Below, piece after piece: positions 36,304 through 50,686 of a stretch of 64,000 nt of DNA. A model generated the notes under the pieces. That model was not told the DNA's origin and searched no databases. It saw only the letters and a list, made by a program, of their open reading frames with translations. The position numbers and the translations under genes are program-made. Source of the DNA: a virus; IMG/VR virus record IMGVR_UViG_3300009788_000093, positions 37,280-101,279 of that record. One strand, 5' to 3'. The stretch's first letter is position 1; each line of letters starts with the position of its first letter.

Positions 36304-36365
36304 ATTTATTGTATTTTCTTCTAAAAAGGGTACTTTGGTGCAGCACTGTAGGCGATAATAGAGGT

Positions 36366-38039
36366 ATGACCTTAGCAAAGCTGTCTATTAGCGGTAATCG
36401 TTTCAGGCTCCAAACGGAGTATCAATTCAGGGTAATCCCCAAACAAATACCGGGTAGCAATTGGTCTAAGGCGAAACAGCTTTGGCAAATACCGCTAGGT
36501 TTAGAGAATTATCAAGCTCTTGTTAACGCCTATAACGACATAGGCATTAATGTTGACACAACAGCTCAAGTTGAGCGATACATTCAAACAGCACTATATA
36601 AGATAGAAACCCTTGATAGCATAATTAAAAACGGTTACGAGAATGCCCCTCTATATAGAGAAGGGCTTTATAGTTATCAAAATCAGGGGATCCAGTACCT
36701 AATAACTGCCAAGCGTTGCGTGTTAGCGGATGAAATGGGCCTCGGGAAAACGGTTCAGTCCTTATTGGCTGCCAAGGCTGTTGCTATTGAGGTGGGCAAT
36801 CCCTGCAAGGTGTTAACAGTCGTGAAGAATAATTTGAAGCCTAATTGGGTGGCTGAAATAGCTATGTGGTTGCCCAAGGCTAAAGTTTGGGTATTGGATG
36901 GATCAACTAAGGTTAAGCAAAAGCAGCTAGATGAAGTTGGCGCTGACGAGAGCGGTTTCATTATCGTAAATTATGAAGGCTTGCGGGATCTACCTGAACT
37001 TCAAAAGCGCAAGGACATTGACGTATTGATAGTTGATGAGGCCCACTATCTAGGCAACCGTAAATCCCAAAGGACTAAGGCGGTCAAAAAGGTGAAAAGC
37101 GATTATGCCTTCTTCTTAACCGGCACGCCCATAACGAACAAGGCTGAGGATTTTTGGTCATTGCTCAATATATTAGAGCCTACTTTGTACGGGAGCTATT
37201 GGCGCTTCATGGAAAAGTATTGTGACCTGAGACACAATGGCTTTGGCCTCGAGGTTGTTAAGACCCATAGTGATAAGCTTGCTTACGACCTAAGGCACAT
37301 GACCATTAGGAGGCTTAAGAAGGGCTCTACCGGCGTCCTAAAGGACTTGCCTGATAAGACTCACCAAACGATTTATGTTGAGCTAACAACCCAGCAAAAA
37401 GAAATGTACCGGCAAGCTCTTGAGGATCTATTTGTCAAGGTATCCAACGATGAAGTTATCGATATATCAAGCGTGCTCACTCAGCTTCTAAGGTTCAGGC
37501 AGATAACGGTGTCAGCTAGGACTCTTGACGAGAATATCATTGAAAAGAAAAACAACAAGTTTGAGTTTGTGAAGTATGTATTGGAAAGCACTGCACCTGA
37601 AGATGGCCTGGTTGTCTTTAGTGCGTTCCGCAAGCCGCTACGCTACCTGGCACAATATTTGATTGATGCCAAAGTGTTGAAGGCTAATGACATTGCCTTG
37701 TATGATGGCGAGCCGGAATTGATTGAAGAGTTCCAAGCCGGTAAGCGACGGTTATTCTTGGGCACAATTAAGAAAGCGGAGGGGTACAACCTATACCGAG
37801 CGAGTCGGTGTATTCGGTTGGATAGAGAATGGACGCCGCGCGAAAATGGGCAAGCAGAAGATAGATTGCACCGCATAGGCCAGAAGGAAAATGTGACTAT
37901 ATATGACATAGTGGTAAGGGGGAGTGTGGATGAAATAGTTGAGGAAACTGTAAGCGGGAAATCAAAACTGTTTAAGTCGATTTTTGACAACAAGAAGGTT
38001 TTAGAAAGGGTGATTGCAAGTGGCAAAAACATTGTCTAA
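36366..38039 (+). CDS. SNF2-family DNA helicase/translocase
   Basis: The ATG at 36366 has an AGAGGT site; an upstream TTG extension is less likely. The 557-residue protein has LADEMGLGKTVQS (motif I), LIVDEAHYLGN (DEAH, motif II), FLTGTPITN (motif III) and the C-terminal SNF2 signature ENGQAEDRLHRIGQ (motif VI). A short N-terminal part before the helicase core resembles the SMARCAL1/HARP-type front. It remodels forks or strips proteins from DNA in phage replication. Confidence 0.93.
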   Translation: MTLAKLSISGNRFRLQTEYQFRVIPKQIPGSNWSKAKQLWQIPLGLENYQALVNAYNDIGINVDTTAQVERYIQTALYKIETLDSIIKNGYENAPLYREGLYSYQNQGIQYLITAKRCVLADEMGLGKTVQSLLAAKAVAIEVGNPCKVLTVVKNNLKPNWVAEIAMWLPKAKVWVLDGSTKVKQKQLDEVGADESGFIIVNYEGLRDLPELQKRKDIDVLIVDEAHYLGNRKSQRTKAVKKVKSDYAFFLTGTPITNKAEDFWSLLNILEPTLYGSYWRFMEKYCDLRHNGFGLEVVKTHSDKLAYDLRHMTIRRLKKGSTGVLKDLPDKTHQTIYVELTTQQKEMYRQALEDLFVKVSNDEVIDISSVLTQLLRFRQITVSARTLDENIIEKKNNKFEFVKYVLESTAPEDGLVVFSAFRKPLRYLAQYLIDAKVLKANDIALYDGEPELIEEFQAGKRRLFLGTIKKAEGYNLYRASRCIRLDREWTPRENGQAEDRLHRIGQKENVTIYDIVVRGSVDEIVEETVSGKSKLFKSIFDNKKVLERVIASGKNIV

Positions 38040-38205
38040 AGGTGCGAACGAAGAAATTGCGTTCCTTCGAAGAAGGATAGCGAGAGCCTACGGCAATGGC
38101 GATATTGATAAGGCTAGATTTGATAGCCTCATCGAAAGACTGGAAGGGCTTAAAGCGGAGATTGAAGAACTAGGGGGTGAAGGTGCCGAAACTACAAGTT
38201 CTTAG
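38020..38205 (+). CDS. Small coiled-coil protein
   Basis: The GTG at 38020 with AAAGGGTGA seven bases upstream gives 61 residues: KGANEEIAFLRRRIARAYGNG then a Lys/Glu-rich helix. Overlaps the helicase end and the nuclease start. Possibly an accessory of one of them; no family recognised. Confidence 0.6.
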   Translation: MAKTLSKGANEEIAFLRRRIARAYGNGDIDKARFDSLIERLEGLKAEIEELGGEGAETTSS

Positions 38206-39241
38206 CAACAGCAAGCGGAATTCTTACTTGGGTTGCGAAGCTAAATATTATTGGGAGTTCGTTCGTCGGTTAAGGCCGAAAGTAACACCGCGCTCCCTAT
38301 GGTTGGGCAGCTTAATCCATGAAGCATTGGCTGAGTTCTATTTGACGATTAAAAATTTGATGAACGATGGTCGAATACGGGGTGTTGTAACTAAGCCAGA
38401 AGCTTACCGTGAAGCCAGAGCACGAGCCCTAGCAAAATTCGCAGATAAGTACGATGAAGAAATGCAATATCTGCTTACGTTGCCGGACAATCAGTTTGAT
38501 CTTGAGGCCCAAGAGCGTGCTCAGGAAGACTTCCATTTAGGCGTTTCAATGCTGAATCAGTATCATCGGTTTGCGCTAGAACAAGATGACTTTGCCGTGA
38601 TTGATGTGGAGTGCGAATTTGAACTTCGGTTGCCCGGAACGAATATTGTGCTTAAGGCACACATTGATTTACTGGGCAAGCTCCCTGACGGAACGCCGCT
38701 TATCCGTGAACACAAAACGGCAAGCAGCCTTTACGACAACTACATTGATTTACAACTAGACACACAGCCTACTGTTTATTCCTTAATGATGAAAGAACAT
38801 TATGGTTGGGTGCGCCCTAGGATTGAGTACAATTTTTTGAAGAAAGTTGCGTTGTCTGAGCCTAAAGTCTTGAAGAACAAAAAGTTAAGTGTGGCAAAAA
38901 ACCAATTGACAACACCGAGGCTTTATCGGGCAGCCATTGAGAGAGAAGGGCTCCAAGAGGTTGATTATGAGGAGTATCTTGATTACCTTGAAACTAACCC
39001 GATAAAGACCAACCACATTGAGCGCGTTACCCGGAATGAGTACGAGATTAATCATGACGTTCAATCGCTGAAGTCTGTTGCTAAATTAATGCGGCAGGTA
39101 GGACAAAGAGAGCCTATTATGACGCCGTCTCATTGGTGTAGAAGTTGTTCTTACAATTCTCTTTGTAAGGTTAAGATCGCTGGGGGCGGTGTTGAAGACG
39201 TAGTTAATGCCTTGTTTAAAGAAGCAGATTATTTACCTTAG
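38183..39241 (+). CDS. Cas4/RecB-like PD-(D/E)XK nuclease with Fe-S cluster
   Basis: The GTG at 38183 follows GGGGGTGA closely. The 352-residue protein has an N-terminal YLGCEAKYYWEF Cys, the nuclease core DVECEFELRLPG, LKAHIDLLGKLPDGT, REHKTASSLYDNYI, then QPTVYSL, and a C-terminal CRSCSYNSLC. The four cysteines fit a 4Fe-4S cluster as in Cas4/AddB. It likely resects DNA ends for the adjacent single-strand annealing system. Confidence 0.87.
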   Translation: MPKLQVLSNSKRNSYLGCEAKYYWEFVRRLRPKVTPRSLWLGSLIHEALAEFYLTIKNLMNDGRIRGVVTKPEAYREARARALAKFADKYDEEMQYLLTLPDNQFDLEAQERAQEDFHLGVSMLNQYHRFALEQDDFAVIDVECEFELRLPGTNIVLKAHIDLLGKLPDGTPLIREHKTASSLYDNYIDLQLDTQPTVYSLMMKEHYGWVRPRIEYNFLKKVALSEPKVLKNKKLSVAKNQLTTPRLYRAAIEREGLQEVDYEEYLDYLETNPIKTNHIERVTRNEYEINHDVQSLKSVAKLMRQVGQREPIMTPSHWCRSCSYNSLCKVKIAGGGVEDVVNALFKEADYLP

Positions 39242-39251
39242 GGGGTGAAAG

Positions 39252-39992
39252 ATGGGAATTGAAGAACTAATTAAGCCGATAGCCGATATTCAAGAAGAAG
39301 AAACTTACAGCATTATTATCTACGGTGAACCAAAAGTTGGGAAAACTCGACTTGCTTCAACCATGGGGGAAAAATACCGGACGCTCTTGATTGATACCGA
39401 AAGTGGCACAAAATCAATCGACCGGGACATACCTCACCTAGATGGTGTTCGGCTTGAGGGTGGATATCCTCAAATGTTGAAGTTGTACGAATATTTGGCA
39501 AAGGGGGATAGCGGTTATGAGGCCGTCATAATTGATAACCTTAGGGATCTAGAGGATAGGATTATGCGGCATACGATCCATGAGTTTGCCAGCGTTAAAC
39601 GACCGTATGGAGATTCGCCGGGTCAAAGTGATTATGGTCGCACTATGGATTTGTTGGTGAGAACGATTAAGGGTTTTCGTGACTTACCGATGCATGTTAT
39701 TTTCGTGACTTGGGAAAAGCTTCAAAAGGATGAAGACGTTGGCAGCAAGCTAGTGCCAGCTATCGTCGGGAAGTCATTGCCTGAAGAGGTTATAGGCTAC
39801 ATAGATATATGTGCTCGGATGTACAAGCAACAAACTGACGATGGAGTAAAGACTAAACTTCTGTTCACCAGCATACCGCATATTGCGGCTGGGGATAGAA
39901 CGGGGAAACTTCCTGATGTAATGGAAGACCCAACAATGTCTAAGATATTTGGATACCTGGAAGGGGACAAGAAAAAAGATGGTAAGGGTTAA
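39252..39992 (+). CDS. Sak4-like RecA-fold ATPase (AAA_24)
   Basis: The 246-residue protein has Walker A YGEPKVGKTRLAS (residues 22-34), LLIDTESGTKSID, Walker B AVIIDNLRDLED, and VIFVTWEKLQKDED, the pattern of phage Sak4 recombinases/annealing ATPases. It sits between the nuclease and an SSB-like gene, the usual recombination trio. Confidence 0.85.
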   Translation: MGIEELIKPIADIQEEETYSIIIYGEPKVGKTRLASTMGEKYRTLLIDTESGTKSIDRDIPHLDGVRLEGGYPQMLKLYEYLAKGDSGYEAVIIDNLRDLEDRIMRHTIHEFASVKRPYGDSPGQSDYGRTMDLLVRTIKGFRDLPMHVIFVTWEKLQKDEDVGSKLVPAIVGKSLPEEVIGYIDICARMYKQQTDDGVKTKLLFTSIPHIAAGDRTGKLPDVMEDPTMSKIFGYLEGDKKKDGKG

Positions 39993-40392
39993 CACAAACA
40001 GCGAGCGCGGCGCACTTCTGCCTGACGGTGATTATGAGGTGAAGGTGGAAAAGGCTATCGAAAAAGAAAAAGAAGAAACCGGCAACGTTAGTGTTCAAAT
40101 TGACGTAAAGGTTATGGAAGGAAACTACGAGGGGCAAATGATTCGTGACTGGCTTCCGTTCTCCGAAAATGCTCTTTGGCGGACGCTCCCGATTATTAGG
40201 GGGATGGGAATCGACGTCCCTGAAGCTAGGGATGATTGGAACTTTGATCCCGCGTCTTTGAGTGGCTTGAATTTCGTGGCTACATTTACGCAACACACTT
40301 ACGGGGGCAATACTAGGAACATCATTTCGGCAACTAATGCGAGCGACAAAAAGTTCGGAGGAAAAGCGATTAGCGACGACATTCCGTTCTAG
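39979..40392 (+). CDS. SSB-like protein (DUF669-type)
   Basis: The ATG at 39979 overlaps the Sak4 end. The 137-residue protein is beta-rich (LPDGDYEVKVEKA, QIDVKVMEGNYEGQMIRDWL) and ends with the acidic tip SDDIPF, the classic C-terminal interaction tail of SSB proteins. It is probably the phage ssDNA-binding protein and is followed by a terminator. An in-frame start at 39949 is less likely. Confidence 0.75.
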   Translation: MVRVNTNSERGALLPDGDYEVKVEKAIEKEKEETGNVSVQIDVKVMEGNYEGQMIRDWLPFSENALWRTLPIIRGMGIDVPEARDDWNFDPASLSGLNFVATFTQHTYGGNTRNIISATNASDKKFGGKAISDDIPF

Positions 40393-40988: not shown

Positions 40989-41151
40989 GGTCACGGAAAG
41001 AAAAAGAAAGGAGCGTATACAATAAACCTTCAAGCCCCAAGAGTGAACCTCAGTAAGTTTCTGCCTGTGACCGGGCTCTCCTTTTTTGAGATTGTTACTG
41101 TTCAAACAATCTCCTCCTTTCGGACTTACTGCGGTTCACCCTTAGGGCTTG
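40989..41151 (+). ncRNA. Structured RNA leader upstream of the primase gene
   Basis: A long stepped hairpin: CAAGCCC/GGGCTTG (41031-41037 with 41145-41151), GTGAACC/GGTTCAC (41043-41049 with 41133-41139) and CAGTAAGT/ACTTACTG (41051-41058 with 41124-41131), capped by GAGATTGTT/AACAATCTC (41088-41096 with 41105-41113). GGTCAC at 40989 can also pair with GTGACC at 41067, and a GAAAGGAG site with CTCCTTTC at 41114-41121. Alternative pairings suggest a regulatory leader or a small RNA. Confidence 0.6.
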
Positions 41152-41262: not shown

Positions 41263-41337
41263 GTGACCAATAAAGTAGAAAGTGTGCCTATATGGCAAAA
41301 TATTACTCATTCTATAAACAATATTTCGAAAAACTAA
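41263..41337 (+). CDS. Possible 24-residue leader peptide overlapping the primase start
   Basis: A GTG at 41263 sits at ideal distance from AAAAGGAGAGGG, the best ribosome site here, and opens a 24-codon frame that runs through the primase ATG. The primase ATG at 41292 has only a weak site of its own, so translation of the leader may deliver ribosomes to it. Confidence 0.35.
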   Translation: MTNKVESVPIWQNITHSINNISKN

Positions 41338-44111
41338 GAAACAAAGAAGGTGAAAATCAGGTATCGTGCTGCTTTCACGACAAAGACGAAAACCCCTCAA
41401 TGTCAATCAATTTGACAACCGGCAAATATATGTGCTTTGCCTGCGGTGAGGCCGGTGATGCTTATAACTTTCATCGTAAACAGCATAATAGTAATTTTCC
41501 CACCGCTAAGAAGGCAGTTGAAAAAGCTACCGGCGAATGGGTTGACGATGATGAACCTCAGAAGAAGCAACCCAAACAGCCTATCAAGGTCAATATTAGA
41601 ACTGAGAAAGAATATCAAACTCTAGAAAAAGAAGTTAAGGCTTGGCACGAAACCTTAATGAAATCTTCTAAGAAGAAAAAGTGGCTTGAAACTAAACGAG
41701 GAATATCGGAAAAAACCATAAAGAAATACCAGTTAGGTTGGGACTTCGAGCGGCTCACTATCCCCATCAAGGACGCGCAAGGACGCATTGTAAACGTTCG
41801 TAAATACAAACCGGGAGCTAAGGGCAAAGAACCTAAGATGACGTCTTACAAGCGGGGGCATGGCGCAGCAAGGCTATTCCCGGTTACTTCTTTAGATGAT
41901 GATACTATTTTGATATGCGAGGGCGAGATGGATGCCATTATTGCCAATCAGTTAGGGTTCAACGCAGTTACTGTCACGGGCGGAGCGGGTACTTGGAAGG
42001 AAGAATGGAACGCCTTATTTAAGGGCAAAGAAGTTTATATTTGTTATGACGTTGATGCACCGGGCACTTCCGGAGCCAGAAAGGTAGCTCAAAACTTATT
42101 TAGGGTAGCCAGTGTTACCAAGATTGTATTGCTACCTTTGGAGGAAAAGGGTTCAGACATTACTGATTATTTCCACGGTAATGGCCAAGGTAAGAAAGAC
42201 TTCCAGGGCTTGATGGCACGATCGCCTGATTATGAACAAACTGAAAAAGAAAAAGGTAAGGACTTCCCAATTGATACGCACTTAAGCACTTCCGATAGGG
42301 CTGCGCTCACAGGCAAGAGGTGTAGAATAAATGCAATTGTAGCCGGGAAGGGGGAATCCTCATTTACAATTCCCTCCAAAGTTAAATATAAATGCGATCG
42401 ACCTGGTGACAAAAAGTGTACCTTGTGCAGCCTGCAATATAGTGGGGAAAAGATTCAAGAGTTTAACGCTCAAGATCCAGTTGTTTTAGAAATGATTAAT
42501 GTCAACAAAGATAGATTATGGGAAGTTATACGAAAAAAAGCAGCAGTCTTCAAAGGCTGCGGCAATGTTAGCCGGGAAACCAAAGGATATATGAATATTG
42601 AGATGGTTCACCTCATACCTGAAGTAGATGCCGGGGAAACAGAACAAAATTATGTTCGAGCAATGGGTTTTTATGTGGGGCACGGGCTTGTAGCTAATCA
42701 ATCATATACGCTTGTAGCGCTATCGACCGTTGAGCCCAAAACTCAGCACACTACCTTATTAATAGAAATAGCGGAGTTGGCTCAAGATAGCGTTATGGCA
42801 TTTGAATTAACACCGGAGATAAAGAAAGAACTTGAGGTTTTTCAATGTGCGCCTAACGATGATGCTATTGAGCATAAGCTAAAGAAAATACATGAAGATT
42901 TAACAGATAATGTAACCCAAATATATGGCCGTAATGATTTATTGATGGCGATAGATCTAGTAATACATTCAGGATTATCATTCAACTTTCAAGGCAAGCG
43001 GCTCAAACGTGGTTGGTGTGAGTGCATGCTCTTAGGCGACACCAGGACGGGCAAAACGGAAGCTGTTCAATCATTGATGAGTCATTACCGAGTGGGCGAA
43101 ATGGTTACGGGGGAAAGCTCAAGTAAGGCCGGATTAACTGGGGGTATGATACCAACCGCAAATGGTTGGCTTATTGCTTGGGGAAAAATACCGCTAAATG
43201 ATCGCAGGCTTGTAGCTATTGATGAAGTCACTGGCTTAAGCCAAGCAAAGATAGGCGAAATGTCGGGAATCAGGAGTAGCGGTATTGCCGAAATTACGAT
43301 GGTTCAAACATCTAAAACTCACGCCAGAACTAGGCTTATTTGGATCAGTAACCCCAGGGATAATAGGCCGCTTAGCGAGTACCCTTTCGGCATTGAAGCT
43401 ATCAAGGATATTATCGGTAAGCCCGAAGATATCAGCCGCTTTGACTTCGCTATCAGTTGTGCCACTGAAGAAGTTGACCCGGATATCATTAACCAAGGCG
43501 AAAAAGATAAGAAGGAGCATATATATACAGCTGATCTTTGCAATAAGCTAGTTCTTTGGGCCTGGAGCCGAAGGTCGGAGCAAATTGAGTTTAAGCCGAA
43601 AGCAGTTAAGGCTATCTTGGGGCATGCCAAACTAATGGGCAAGAATTTTAGTTCGACTATCCCCTTAGTTGAGGGTGCTGATCAGCGAATCAAGATAGCC
43701 CGATTATCAGTATCCATGGCGGCGAGGCTTTTCAGTACGGACGAAACCGGCGAAAAGATCATAGTTGAGCCTGCCCACGTGACCAAGGTGGTAGAGTTTT
43801 TATATGAGATTTACAACAAAGGCAGCTTAGGCTATTCCCACTACAGTGACACTAAACTGGCAAACAAGCGTAAGGTTGAAGAACGCTTAACGAAAATTAA
43901 GGAGTTTTTGGCCGATAAAGAAACGTTGCGGGAGCTGTTTTACAACACCCGGTATGTTAGGGTGAAGGATATGATTATTTGGTTGGATGAAGATAAACAG
44001 ACTTGCGAAGGTTGGACGAGATTTATGTTGCTTAACGGCTTGCTTAAACAAAATACAAACGGCTACGAAAAGACGGCGGAGTTCATCAAGATATTGAGAG
44101 GTGTAATGTGA
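41292..44111 (+). CDS. Primase-helicase: zinc finger and Toprim fused to MCM-type AAA+ helicase
   Basis: The 939-residue protein begins with a CHC2-like zinc domain (CCFHDKDENPSM, CFACG, residues 26-51), a helical link and a Toprim domain (ILICEGEMDAI near 207, CYDVDAPGT near 252). An MCM N-terminal-like region follows with a zinc motif KCDRPGDKKCTLC near 367. The AAA+ core has Walker A GDTRTGKTEAV (near 582), the MCM hallmark GESSSKAGLTGGM (near 606), Walker B LVAIDEVTG, sensor WISNPRD and finger ISRFD (near 715). It should prime and unwind at the phage fork. DnaG-type priming joined to an MCM motor is unusual. Confidence 0.9.
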   Translation: MAKYYSFYKQYFEKLRNKEGENQVSCCFHDKDENPSMSINLTTGKYMCFACGEAGDAYNFHRKQHNSNFPTAKKAVEKATGEWVDDDEPQKKQPKQPIKVNIRTEKEYQTLEKEVKAWHETLMKSSKKKKWLETKRGISEKTIKKYQLGWDFERLTIPIKDAQGRIVNVRKYKPGAKGKEPKMTSYKRGHGAARLFPVTSLDDDTILICEGEMDAIIANQLGFNAVTVTGGAGTWKEEWNALFKGKEVYICYDVDAPGTSGARKVAQNLFRVASVTKIVLLPLEEKGSDITDYFHGNGQGKKDFQGLMARSPDYEQTEKEKGKDFPIDTHLSTSDRAALTGKRCRINAIVAGKGESSFTIPSKVKYKCDRPGDKKCTLCSLQYSGEKIQEFNAQDPVVLEMINVNKDRLWEVIRKKAAVFKGCGNVSRETKGYMNIEMVHLIPEVDAGETEQNYVRAMGFYVGHGLVANQSYTLVALSTVEPKTQHTTLLIEIAELAQDSVMAFELTPEIKKELEVFQCAPNDDAIEHKLKKIHEDLTDNVTQIYGRNDLLMAIDLVIHSGLSFNFQGKRLKRGWCECMLLGDTRTGKTEAVQSLMSHYRVGEMVTGESSSKAGLTGGMIPTANGWLIAWGKIPLNDRRLVAIDEVTGLSQAKIGEMSGIRSSGIAEITMVQTSKTHARTRLIWISNPRDNRPLSEYPFGIEAIKDIIGKPEDISRFDFAISCATEEVDPDIINQGEKDKKEHIYTADLCNKLVLWAWSRRSEQIEFKPKAVKAILGHAKLMGKNFSSTIPLVEGADQRIKIARLSVSMAARLFSTDETGEKIIVEPAHVTKVVEFLYEIYNKGSLGYSHYSDTKLANKRKVEERLTKIKEFLADKETLRELFYNTRYVRVKDMIIWLDEDKQTCEGWTRFMLLNGLLKQNTNGYEKTAEFIKILRGVM

Positions 44112-44764
44112 GCACTATTGGGATTACTCATGTAACCGGGAGCGGCAGCGAGTATCCAATGAAAGTTTATCACAAGGTTATTAAGCCTGAAGAGATAATT
44201 TTGCTCGAAGGCAATAAGGCGGATTATTGTGTAGGGTGCAGTAATCATGAGAAGAATGGCGGTTGTGCTTGGTGTGCTCCCGACTTCAATAAGCTGGCTA
44301 AAAATTATCCACTCTTTCACATCATATCTTTGCAATCAACTTATGATACTATCCTCAAGTTTGAGAAGATGGCTATCTTTCATAGGCTGTCTAACTTGGA
44401 GCGGTTGACGGCGAATATTATGAATAAGTTGGCGGCGAAATATATTGAAAGCGTAACAGAAAAATCCTACCTAATTTCTCAAGGAAACTGCCGGAGTTGT
44501 CGGTCAAAAGGTTGCGTGGTTGCTGACGGCGAAAAATGCGTTCACCCAACTCGGCGACGTTATAGCCTAGAAGCTACTGGCATAAACGTAGTAAAAACAG
44601 TTAAGAAACAACTTGATATTAAGCTCCTATGGTATGAGCGCGGGACGGGCGTGCTCCCCGACCACATGACTAGGGTGGCAGGAATATTGACCAATATGAC
44701 AATAGAAGAATGCAACGAAGCTATTGAGGAGACAGTGAGGTCGTTATATGGAGGAAAGGAATAG
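44108..44764 (+). CDS. Predicted metal-binding protein, DUF2284-like
   Basis: GTG start overlapping the primase stop. The 218-residue protein has two Cys clusters: CVGCSNHEKNGGCAWCAP (residues about 41-58) and CRSCRSKGC...EKCVHP near 130-150, followed by RRYSLEATGINVVKTVKKQ. The CxxC/CPP-type layout and the second cluster match DUF2284 metal-binding proteins, probably Fe-S. Role in the phage unknown. Confidence 0.62.
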   Translation: MSTIGITHVTGSGSEYPMKVYHKVIKPEEIILLEGNKADYCVGCSNHEKNGGCAWCAPDFNKLAKNYPLFHIISLQSTYDTILKFEKMAIFHRLSNLERLTANIMNKLAAKYIESVTEKSYLISQGNCRSCRSKGCVVADGEKCVHPTRRRYSLEATGINVVKTVKKQLDIKLLWYERGTGVLPDHMTRVAGILTNMTIEECNEAIEETVRSLYGGKE

Positions 44765-46813: not shown

Positions 46814-47247
46814 AGCAAGCTGTATTTGCCGTAGATCCCGGGGATGAAATTATGAATTGGCTCGTTGCGGGGTCGGATGGGAATATTCAAAGGTACGGCG
46901 AAGGCAATATGATTGAATTTGAGGAAGCACTTCTTGAGGCGAATCAACATTATGTGACTAAGGCTGGGATGGTTGTCGTCATTGAAGATTACATCAGCTA
47001 TCCGGGCAACGCTAAGTTGTATAAACCGCTTTTAACTGCGGAGAATTTGGGTGTGGCTAAATATATTTGTGACCGTGAACAGATTCCGTATGTTCTCCAA
47101 AAAGCTGGGGAAATGAAGTTGTTTGGTGACGATTATTTGCGGCTCAAGGGGTTGTGGGTAAAGAATCGACATTATAGGTCGTGCCTGAAGCATTATTTGG
47201 TTTACAAGAAAAAGGAAGCAGCAGGTCATGCCCCGAAAGGGATATAA
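46810..47247 (+). CDS. RuvC/RNase H-fold resolvase-like protein
   Basis: The 145-residue protein opens with AVFAVDPGDEIMNWLV (first acidic residue) and has VVVIEDYISYPGNAKLYK (second), followed by IPYVLQKAGEMK, the usual phage Holliday-junction resolvase order. The expected third acidic site appears as NRHYRSCLKHYLVYK, with Ser where Asp is typical, and the extreme C-terminus overlaps a homing endonuclease gene by 20 bases. The end of the gene may have been altered by that insertion. Confidence 0.65.
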   Translation: MKQAVFAVDPGDEIMNWLVAGSDGNIQRYGEGNMIEFEEALLEANQHYVTKAGMVVVIEDYISYPGNAKLYKPLLTAENLGVAKYICDREQIPYVLQKAGEMKLFGDDYLRLKGLWVKNRHYRSCLKHYLVYKKKEAAGHAPKGI

Positions 47248-47929
47248 GCAAACAGTTGAACACCGAAAGAAGAGAGGTGACGCACTCAAAGGCAGAAAAC
47301 GCAAAGAGACTTCTGAAGAAACTAAGCTTAAAATAAGTAATGCCCTCAAGGGTAAGCCGTCTTGGATGAAAGGTAGAAAGCATTCTGAGGAAACCAAACA
47401 GAAAATGAGCGAATCTCAGAAAAAGAGGGTTGGAGTTTGTTGGCCGAAAGGCAAGAAACATTCTGAAGAAACTAAGCTTAAAATAAGTAAGGCTAAACAA
47501 GGGGTATTGCGCGGTTCACCTTCAGAAGAAACTAAGGACAAAATGCGCGAAGCATCTGCTAGGCGATGGGGCGATCCCGAGGCAAAGCAAGAACAGTTAA
47601 GGAAGATGCGAGAAGGAAGAACATATGCTGGCACAACCATAGAGCTTGCCATAAGGGCGGTCTTAGATGAATGGGGCGTCACTCATATTGATAATAAATA
47701 TTATGCAGGAAGGGAATGCGATATATTCATCCCTTGTTGTAACTTGAATATAGAATGTGACGGAGACTATTGGCACGGTAGGCCGGGGGTAAGGGAAAGC
47801 GATAGGGAACGAGATATATTTATGAGAGCGTTAGGCTATGAGGTAGTAAGAATTTGGGAGAAAGATATTAGGGAAAACCCTGAGGTGGCACTTGAAGCAG
47901 CGTTAATAGAAAGGATAGGTAATGGATAA
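47228..47929 (+). CDS. Freestanding homing endonuclease, NUMOD3 plus Vsr/DUF559-like nuclease
   Basis: The 233-residue protein has four N-terminal NUMOD3 DNA-binding units (SEETKLKISNALKG, SEETKQKMSESQKK, SEETKLKISKAKQG, SEETKDKMREAS) and a C-terminal nuclease with TIELAIRAVLDEWGV, ECDIFIPCCNLNIECDGDYWHG and a Vsr-like acidic/His core. The nuclease resembles that of the MuF intein. It is a mobile gene inserted at the 3' end of the resolvase gene. Confidence 0.88.
   Translation: MPRKGYKQTVEHRKKRGDALKGRKRKETSEETKLKISNALKGKPSWMKGRKHSEETKQKMSESQKKRVGVCWPKGKKHSEETKLKISKAKQGVLRGSPSEETKDKMREASARRWGDPEAKQEQLRKMREGRTYAGTTIELAIRAVLDEWGVTHIDNKYYAGRECDIFIPCCNLNIECDGDYWHGRPGVRESDRERDIFMRALGYEVVRIWEKDIRENPEVALEAALIERIGNG
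47311..47490 (+). repeat. Perfect 30-bp direct repeat pair within the NUMOD3 region
   Basis: The 30 bases at 47311-47340 and 47461-47490 are identical, 150 bases apart, and encode the same SEETKLKIS unit. Identity at every third position implies recent duplication or gene conversion. Confidence 0.9.
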
Positions 47930-49276: not shown

Positions 49277-49542
49277 GCATAGGTGTGCACGCAATACTTG
49301 AGATATTACAATCATCTGCATTGGCGCTTTTGTGTGTAGTTGTTCTTGCGAACGTTCTACTAGCAAGGCGACTTGCGAGCAGCATGGGGCAAATTGATAT
49401 GTTGGAACTAAGGATGGATATACACACAACCAGGCTTGAGGGGCTAGAAGGGCATAAGCACGAAGGTGATAAGATTATTAAGCCAGAAATAATGCCAACG
49501 CCTAGGATGAAGGAGTGGAAGGATAAACTTGAAGGTTTATAG
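49273..49542 (+). CDS. Small membrane protein with coiled coil
   Basis: From the ATG at 49273, 89 residues: one N-terminal membrane segment (ILQSSALALLCVVVLANVLL) followed by a coiled coil (GQIDMLELRMDIHTTRLEG). Spanin-like topology is superficial only. Its end overlaps rtcB. Confidence 0.6.
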   Translation: MSIGVHAILEILQSSALALLCVVVLANVLLARRLASSMGQIDMLELRMDIHTTRLEGLEGHKHEGDKIIKPEIMPTPRMKEWKDKLEGL

Positions 49543-50686
49543 AGAAAATGGACTTCCAATAAAAGCGTGGCTTGACGATATAGAAGATGGTGCGTTGAAG
49601 CAGGCATATAACTTGGCCGAATTACCGTTCGTCTATAAGCATATTGCGCTTATGCCGGACGCTCATGTCGGGTACGGAATGCCAATCGGGGGTATTATGG
49701 CTACTAAGGGCGTTGTTGTGCCTTATGCGGTTGGGTACGATATTGGTTGTGGTATGTGCGTGTGTAGCCTTGGTATTAAGGATATCAGCAAAGAAGATTT
49801 GAAAAAGGTTATGGGGCTTATCCGTAAACGGATTCCAGTCGGCAAAAATTGGCATAAGGAAATGAAGGCGACGGGCTTTTTGCCTGATTTGCCCGACAAT
49901 ACACCTATCGTTGAGCGGGAATATGCTAAGGCTCGTAAGCAGGTTGGAACCTTAGGCGGGGGCAACCACTTTATTGAAATTCAAAAAGGTTCAGGCGGCT
50001 ATATCCATATAATGATTCACAGCGGTAGCCGGAACCTTGGGCACCAGGTGGCCGGTCATTATAATAAGGTGGCGGTTGAGCTGAATGAAAGATGGTTTTC
50101 AAAGGTGCCGAAGGAATGGCAGTTGGCATTTTTACCGACGGATACCGACGAGGGCAGAGCTTATATGGCTGAGATGGAATACTGCCTTAAGTTTGCCCGT
50201 AAAAACCGGGCGTTCATGATGAATGAGGTAATCAAGATTTTCGTCAGCGAGGGAATATCTGGGCCAGAAGAAACATATCTTGACGTGGCGCATAACTATG
50301 CCGCTTGGGAAAACCATTTTGGTCAAAATGTTATTGTTCATAGGAAGGGAGCAACGAGAGCTTATGAAGGAGAGCGCGGAATTATACCGGGTTCCCAAGG
50401 AGCCTTTAGTTACATTGTTAAAGGTAAGGGTCACGAAATGGCGTTCAAGTCTTGCTCCCACGGTGCAGGTAGAAAGATGGGGCGCAAAGACGCTATTCGC
50501 AGCCTTGATATGGCTGAACAAATAGATATCCTTGACGCTAAAGGGGTTATTCATTCGGTGCGGAACAAAGGCAACCTTGACGAAGCACCAGGTGCTTATA
50601 AGGACATAGCTGAGGTTATGGCTAACCAAAGCGACCTAGTTGATATTGAAGTTGAGCTAACGCCGCTGGCGGTGATTAAGGGGTAG
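49529..50686 (+). CDS. rtcB: RtcB-type RNA ligase
   Basis: TTG start behind GGAAGG. The 385-residue protein has the RtcB signatures: MPDAHVGYGMPIGGIMAT, AVGYDIGCGM (metal Cys), GTLGGGNHFIE, IHSGSRNLGHQ, and SHGAGRKMGR containing the guanylylated His. RtcB joins 2',3'-cyclic phosphate and 5'-OH RNA ends with GTP, as after anticodon nuclease cleavage. Slightly shorter than bacterial RtcB (about 400-480). Confidence 0.96.
   Translation: MKVYRENGLPIKAWLDDIEDGALKQAYNLAELPFVYKHIALMPDAHVGYGMPIGGIMATKGVVVPYAVGYDIGCGMCVCSLGIKDISKEDLKKVMGLIRKRIPVGKNWHKEMKATGFLPDLPDNTPIVEREYAKARKQVGTLGGGNHFIEIQKGSGGYIHIMIHSGSRNLGHQVAGHYNKVAVELNERWFSKVPKEWQLAFLPTDTDEGRAYMAEMEYCLKFARKNRAFMMNEVIKIFVSEGISGPEETYLDVAHNYAAWENHFGQNVIVHRKGATRAYEGERGIIPGSQGAFSYIVKGKGHEMAFKSCSHGAGRKMGRKDAIRSLDMAEQIDILDAKGVIHSVRNKGNLDEAPGAYKDIAEVMANQSDLVDIEVELTPLAVIKG

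Follow-up and report, generated by a model that had tools for sequence, protein, structure and literature searches.

The window, i.e., the whole stretch of 64,000 nucleotides that was analysed, represents the last 64 kb of a virus record of 101,279 bases (IMGVR_UViG_3300009788_000093). It contains a gene for a 939-aa protein in which CHC2, Toprim, and MCM domains were all matched over the curated Pfam cut-offs. The position given for this ORF in the preliminary description was exact, and the frame is open end to end. The gene belongs to a module with the order SNF2-type helicase, PD-(D/E)XK nuclease, RecA-like AAA_24, DUF669, and primase-MCM, which is broadly kept in the phages Youna2, BSP7, Krampus, and Wollypog. 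The DUF669 protein probably has an ssDNA-binding role. The coordinates of the features are listed in Table 1.

Table 1. Features of the primase-MCM locus in window coordinates.
Feature	Position	Strand	Evidence
SNF2/DEAD-type SF2 helicase of the same replication-recombination module	36309..38039	+	same order in phage relatives
PD-(D/E)XK nuclease	38177..39241	+	
RecA-like AAA_24 (Sak4-like) recombinase	39252..39992	+	relatives' copies annotated RecA-like
DUF669 protein	39979..40392	+	DUF669 protein at same position in phage Youna2
Long stem-loop in ~900-bp non-coding gap directly upstream of the primase-MCM gene	41031..41151	+	fold z, conserved stem
Primase-helicase gene, DnaG-type primase and MCM helicase, 939 aa	41292..44111	+	ORF intact, open throughout
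DnaG-type CHC2 zinc finger, residues 17-80	41340..41531	+	Pfam Zn_ribbon_DnaG 6e-12; conservation
Toprim primase domain, residues 204-298	41901..42185	+	Pfam Toprim_2/4; residue conservation
MCM N-tier-like domain (predicted), residues ~328-496, beta-rich, four-cysteine site	42273..42779	+	AlphaFold2 secondary structure, Foldseek, cysteines
MCM AAA+ motor, residues 531-723	42882..43460	+	Pfam MCM 1e-10; PDB profile search; hhalign
Walker A GDTRTGKT, residues 582-589	43035..43058	+	sequence; K588 invariant
MCM hallmark GESSSKAGLT, residues 607-616, then beta-hairpin 617-630 matching helix-2 insert	43110..43139	+	sequence, AlphaFold2, hhalign
Walker B ..IDE, D644 and E645	43209..43226	+	residue conservation
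Arginine finger SRFD, residues 715-718	43434..43445	+	sequence; R716 invariant
AAA+ lid helices 747-841 and predicted C-terminal helix-turn-helix/winged-helix region 848-938	43530..44105	+	AlphaFold2 secondary structure; hhalign

Several neighbouring ORFs were also observed. A DUF2284 metal-binding protein (44108-44764) overlaps the end of the primase-MCM gene by 4 bases and is followed by thymidylate synthase. By eye, a homing-endonuclease-like ORF with repeated HSEETKxKxS motifs (47228-47929) was seen within the replication module, and an RtcB-type RNA ligase-like ORF at 49529-50686. In the part of the record immediately preceding the window (L092 6509-18293), a cluster resembling nonulosonic (sialic/pseudaminic/legionaminic-type) acid synthesis was recognized by eye from translations only; it comprises epimerase/dehydratase, DegT-like aminotransferase, two NeuB-like, PseG-like, and NeuA-like proteins.

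A 332-nt region of the gap upstream of the primase-MCM gene folds at z = -5.6, and its stem is kept in the 84%-identical relative (L002), where it consists of 26 uninterrupted base pairs and shows paired changes. The stem-loop is a candidate leader RNA or origin hairpin. The Rfam search of the gap gave no credible match. According to lenient ORF calling, the median gap in relatives is 4 nt, and only 1 of 61 exceeds 300 nt; because these gaps are so short, the upstream gap is not a family feature, and its interpretation as a conserved origin was rejected.

The N-terminal half was classed as DnaG-type. The CHC2-like and Toprim motifs noticed in the preliminary description were recovered by Pfam (6e-12 and 4e-9, respectively), the latter as Toprim_2/4 at residues 204-293. 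All four CHC2 ligands (C26, H29, C48, and C51) are present in the window protein; across 65 relatives they vary, with H29 kept in 54 and C51 in 34 as aligned. The Toprim residues E212, D253, D255, and D289 were found in 65/65 relatives and E210 in 59/65. Pfam detected CHC2 in 29 of 40 relatives and Toprim in 36 of 40. The full DnaG equivalog model (NCBIfam TIGR01391) scored 112 bits and did not reach its cut-off of 283.6. The AEP domain is absent, as no DNA_primase_S match was obtained in the window protein using Pfam. Judged from its sequence, this half is a related primase domain rather than a cellular DnaG, and the CHC2-Toprim module is predicted to synthesize primers.

The remainder of the protein matched Pfam MCM at residues 531-720 (1e-10), and DnaB_C, the RecA-fold SF4 motor, was not found by Pfam in the window protein. 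Among 40 relatives taken singly, 36 matched Pfam MCM (best 6e-17), and one also matched generic AAA. Matches to MCM and to Toprim in 36 of 40 relatives each go beyond chance. The PDB search with the profile of 65 relatives revealed DnaG 2au3 (9e-25), MCM2 (3e-12), and archaeal MCM (3e-11), and the 60 best-listed profile matches comprised only MCMs and primases, the latter being DnaG and T7 gp4 aligned with the primase portion. The phage motor was aligned by hhalign with ten archaeal MCM-family proteins (99.3%, E 1.5e-20, 466 columns) through the lid and C-terminal domain to the archaeal MCM C-terminus; the identity to cellular MCM was about 17%. In the AlphaFold2 monomer model (mean pLDDT 90.2), hairpins 617-630 and 665-677 correspond in position to the helix-2 insert and the pre-sensor-1 hairpin. 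The 50 best PDB matches of this model in Foldseek were MCM subunits (top 1.4e-24, 652 columns), with an alignment of about 650 columns covering whole subunits, N-tier included. A blind motor scan of 84,980 genomes recovered archaeal MCMs and a few bacterial loci with the phage motor. The profile searches of the kind proposed in the preliminary description came out for MCM, leaving SF4/DnaB unsupported, and the structure prediction, made on a monomer, led to the same family; none of the searches placed the motor in another AAA+ clade.

The motifs GESSSKAGLT and SRFD, on which the earlier assignment was based, are present in the motor. K588, N687 (sensor 1), and R716 were conserved in 65/65 relatives, E645 in 64/65, and D644 in 63/65. 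The MCM-type AAA+ core is present, including Walker A and B, the helix-2 insert, sensor 1, and the arginine finger. The MCM-like zinc site reported earlier corresponds to C368, C376, and C379 (65/65 relatives) together with C423 (63/65); an N-terminal OB domain with a zinc-binding site is predicted as a fold from the model. A C-terminal winged helix is also predicted from the secondary structure of the model and the hhalign match to the archaeal MCM C-terminus. The NCBIfam whole-protein MCM model gave 26 bits and did not reach its cut-off of 940. At the sequence level, the motor can be regarded as a divergent MCM and not as an ortholog of cellular MCM. The fusion of a DnaG-type primase with an MCM-type helicase claimed in the preliminary description was confirmed, and Pfam, PDB profiles, hhalign, and Foldseek concur in placing its motor with MCM.

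The fusion is not unique to the window and represents a widespread phage family; isolate genomes already contain members, although the names given to them are vague. Full-length proteins 84% identical to the window protein are encoded in two other contigs, and proteins 30-45% identical in dozens more. An alignment search revealed relatives in at least 329 viral contigs; the 80 retained match across both halves. Matches that span 80% or more of the window protein were obtained in 47 records of the phage collection. Isolate phages of Bacillus, Weizmannia, Arthrobacter, Microbacterium, and Paenibacillus carry DnaG-MCM relatives, in which Toprim or CHC2 together with MCM was confirmed using Pfam; Krampus, API480, and ctIqW946 are a weaker case, with MCM under the curated cut-off. 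The existing annotations of relatives are 'DNA primase', 'DNA primase/helicase', 'DNA primase small subunit', and 'DNA directed DNA polymerase'. The identities of the primase and motor halves correlate over 65 relatives (r = 0.88; maximum of 500 shuffles 0.14), so that the halves diverge together, as expected for an old, stable fusion. A chimera or assembly error was rejected on the basis of this co-divergence and the full-length copies in other contigs. Whole-protein matches from Streptomyces, Leptospira, Helicobacter, and cyanophage were not accepted as relatives of the fusion, as they cover the primase half only and leave the MCM half unmatched. The most divergent homologue was that of Paenibacillus phage API480 (L009 7995-10784), with an altered Walker A (GEPRSMKS), no Pfam Toprim match, and most of the N-tier zinc cysteines gone.

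In Bacillus phages and prophages as well as in a B. velezensis plasmid, the same MCM motor was found joined to an AEP primase (L010 6900-9980; L093-L127). The motor of vB_BboS-125 gp45 was 33% identical over 97% of the query, and its primase is AEP (PriS/PriL-like). The N-termini of 176 motor-bearing ORFs comprised 87 of DnaG type, 38 of AEP type, and 51 of neither, the last almost all archaeal MCMs. PHROG 18685 ('unknown function') represents the AEP-MCM protein; the DnaG-MCM proteins match it over the motor only and match DnaG PHROGs over the primase, and because the matches are split in this way, no DnaG-MCM family of its own was seen among them. In the tree, the phage motors formed one group (100/100) against 16 archaeal MCMs. 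The AEP rows nested among the DnaG rows when the long-branched Paenibacillus API480 (L009) row was included; without it, the DnaG rows formed one group (89/100), and the AEP rows were no longer nested. The primase appears to have been swapped on a common motor, and the direction of the swap, i.e., whether DnaG or AEP is older, depends on the rows taken into the tree. MCM helicases with AEP primases were reported in bacteriophages and bacterial plasmids in 2018 (PMC5862659). BcMCM, an AEP-MCM of a B. cereus prophage, is reported to be a 3'-5' helicase, for which a later study added primase and polymerase activity (PMC4538821); judging from its description, it probably belongs to the phage AEP-MCM group. 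No paper on a DnaG-MCM fusion was found in the literature searched, a set that lacked the main survey (Kazlauskas 2016). Phage primase-helicases and phage MCMs are already known, and the DnaG-MCM protein is a variant for which no description was found, widespread and overlooked.

To assess the replication genes of relatives, DnaB_C was searched in 29 whole phage records, including seven deposited phage genomes, one of which (vB_BboS-125) is of AEP type. It was detected in 0/29, and the control in this search was positive in 14/14 named genomes. PolA (family A) was present in 11/29 records and DnaE-type polymerase in 15/29, together in 26/29, so that one kind of primase-helicase operates alongside two unrelated polymerases. 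In the window's own record, there was no DnaB_C, PolA, DnaE, or PolB match, so that either another or a host polymerase is used or the record is incomplete. Since DnaB is absent from the 29 relatives and 26 of them encode a polymerase, the window fusion is likely, with considerable confidence, to be the phage's replicative primase-helicase.

According to the proposed mechanism, the N-terminal CHC2-Toprim module would make RNA primers in the DnaG fashion, and the remainder would be a complete MCM subunit with an OB/zinc N-tier, an AAA+ motor, and a C-terminal winged helix. The MCM subunits would form a ring, presumably hexameric, with ATP hydrolysed between subunits, and the ring would travel 3'-5' along the leading-strand template. 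The primase, attached to the N-tier, would prime the lagging strand, which would be excluded between the zinc fingers. Because BcMCM unwinds 3'-5', the same polarity is a well-founded prediction for the window protein and would have a precedent among bacterial phages. In the replisomes of yeast and humans, the primase subunit sits on the leading CMG N-tier, above the zinc-finger channel where the lagging-strand template exits (PMC10501992). A primase fused to the MCM N-terminus would therefore occupy the place of Pol alpha-primase in eukaryotic replisomes, and this position would explain how a DnaG-type primase, moved from a DnaB-type to an MCM-type motor, could still prime the lagging strand. 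No loader was identified, which counts against the replicative reading, as do the missing polymerase match in the window's own record, the variable CHC2 finger of relatives, and the identity of only about 17% to cellular MCM.

Other explanations were weighed against this reading. Other AAA+ clades share some short motifs, for instance the helix-2 insert, and the motor could thus be of another AAA+ or RecA-type family (SF3, SF4/DnaB, Mg-chelatase, sigma-54, or DUF927-like), MCM-like in short motifs only; the generic AAA match in 1/40 relatives points the same way. However, Pfam, the PDB profile search, hhalign, AlphaFold2/Foldseek, and the blind scan all lead to MCM, the four-cysteine N-tier and C-terminal winged helix are MCM parts beyond the motor, and the T7 gp4 matches cover the primase part only. 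Because the five tests agree, another AAA+ clade was rejected for the motor, and such an origin is extremely improbable. It is very unlikely, too, that one half is inactive, with Toprim/CHC2 now serving in DNA binding or regulation and the host DnaG priming. The variation of C51 and H29 among relatives would fit such a loss, as would the Paenibacillus phage homologue with its changed Walker A and missing Pfam Toprim match, but the window protein keeps all four CHC2 ligands, and the four Toprim residues E212, D253, D255, and D289 do not vary among the 65 relatives.

The fusion might instead have an accessory role, in recombination-dependent replication or in restarting forks, with a host DnaB-type helicase driving the forks. 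The gene lies near an SNF2 helicase, a PD-(D/E)XK nuclease, and a RecA-like recombinase, its own record lacks a replicative polymerase match, and a restart role was proposed for BcMCM in a review (PMC4538821). Against this stand the absence of a DnaB-type helicase in all 29 relatives, 26 of them equipped with a polymerase, and the retention of primase and helicase with all catalytic residues in one chain, which suits continuous fork movement. The accessory role is, on balance, unlikely. There is slightly better than an even chance that these phages represent an unrecognised large class of replisomes with eukaryote-like fork geometry: a 3'-5' MCM ring on the leading-strand template, an N-tier DnaG-type primase at the lagging-strand exit, PolA or DnaE, no DnaB, and DnaG and AEP primases swapped in phage evolution.

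Bacterial replication uses DnaB, which unwinds DNA 5'-3' on the lagging strand, while in archaea and eukaryotes MCM unwinds it 3'-5' on the leading strand; the reason for this polarity split is a long-standing question on the origins of replication machines. Within bacterial cells, the phages studied appear to combine an MCM motor with a bacterial primase and, in many cases, with a polymerase of bacterial type, and the fusion appears to replace the usual bacterial-type helicase in a large phage group. As the relative BSP7 grows on Bacillus subtilis, the polarity, primase geometry, and host-DnaB independence are testable in a standard laboratory host. Moreover, hundreds of phage proteins labelled 'DNA primase', 'DNA polymerase', or 'unknown function' would gain correct names.

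Compared with known systems, the window fusion shares with the MCMs of haloviruses and archaeal plasmids the location of an MCM on a mobile element; however, the halovirus MCM is stand-alone and filed with an archaeal host, and those plasmid MCMs that were placed in the tree group with archaeal MCMs. Archaeal and eukaryotic MCMs are similar in the motor, the N-tier zinc domain, and the predicted C-terminal winged helix, whereas they have no primase in the chain, and the phage motors group apart from them. T7 gp4 and other DnaG-DnaB (SF4) primase-helicases likewise have a helicase preceded by CHC2 and Toprim in a single chain, but their motor is a RecA-fold SF4 one, in contrast to the MCM AAA+ motor of the window protein, for which the opposite polarity and threaded strand are predicted. 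The BcMCM/AEP-MCM proteins (vB_BboS-125 gp45, PHROG 18685) have a homologous motor, the same N-tier/AAA+/winged-helix layout, a fused primase, and a phage setting, and they differ in the primase, which is archaeo-eukaryotic in these proteins and DnaG-type in the window fusion.
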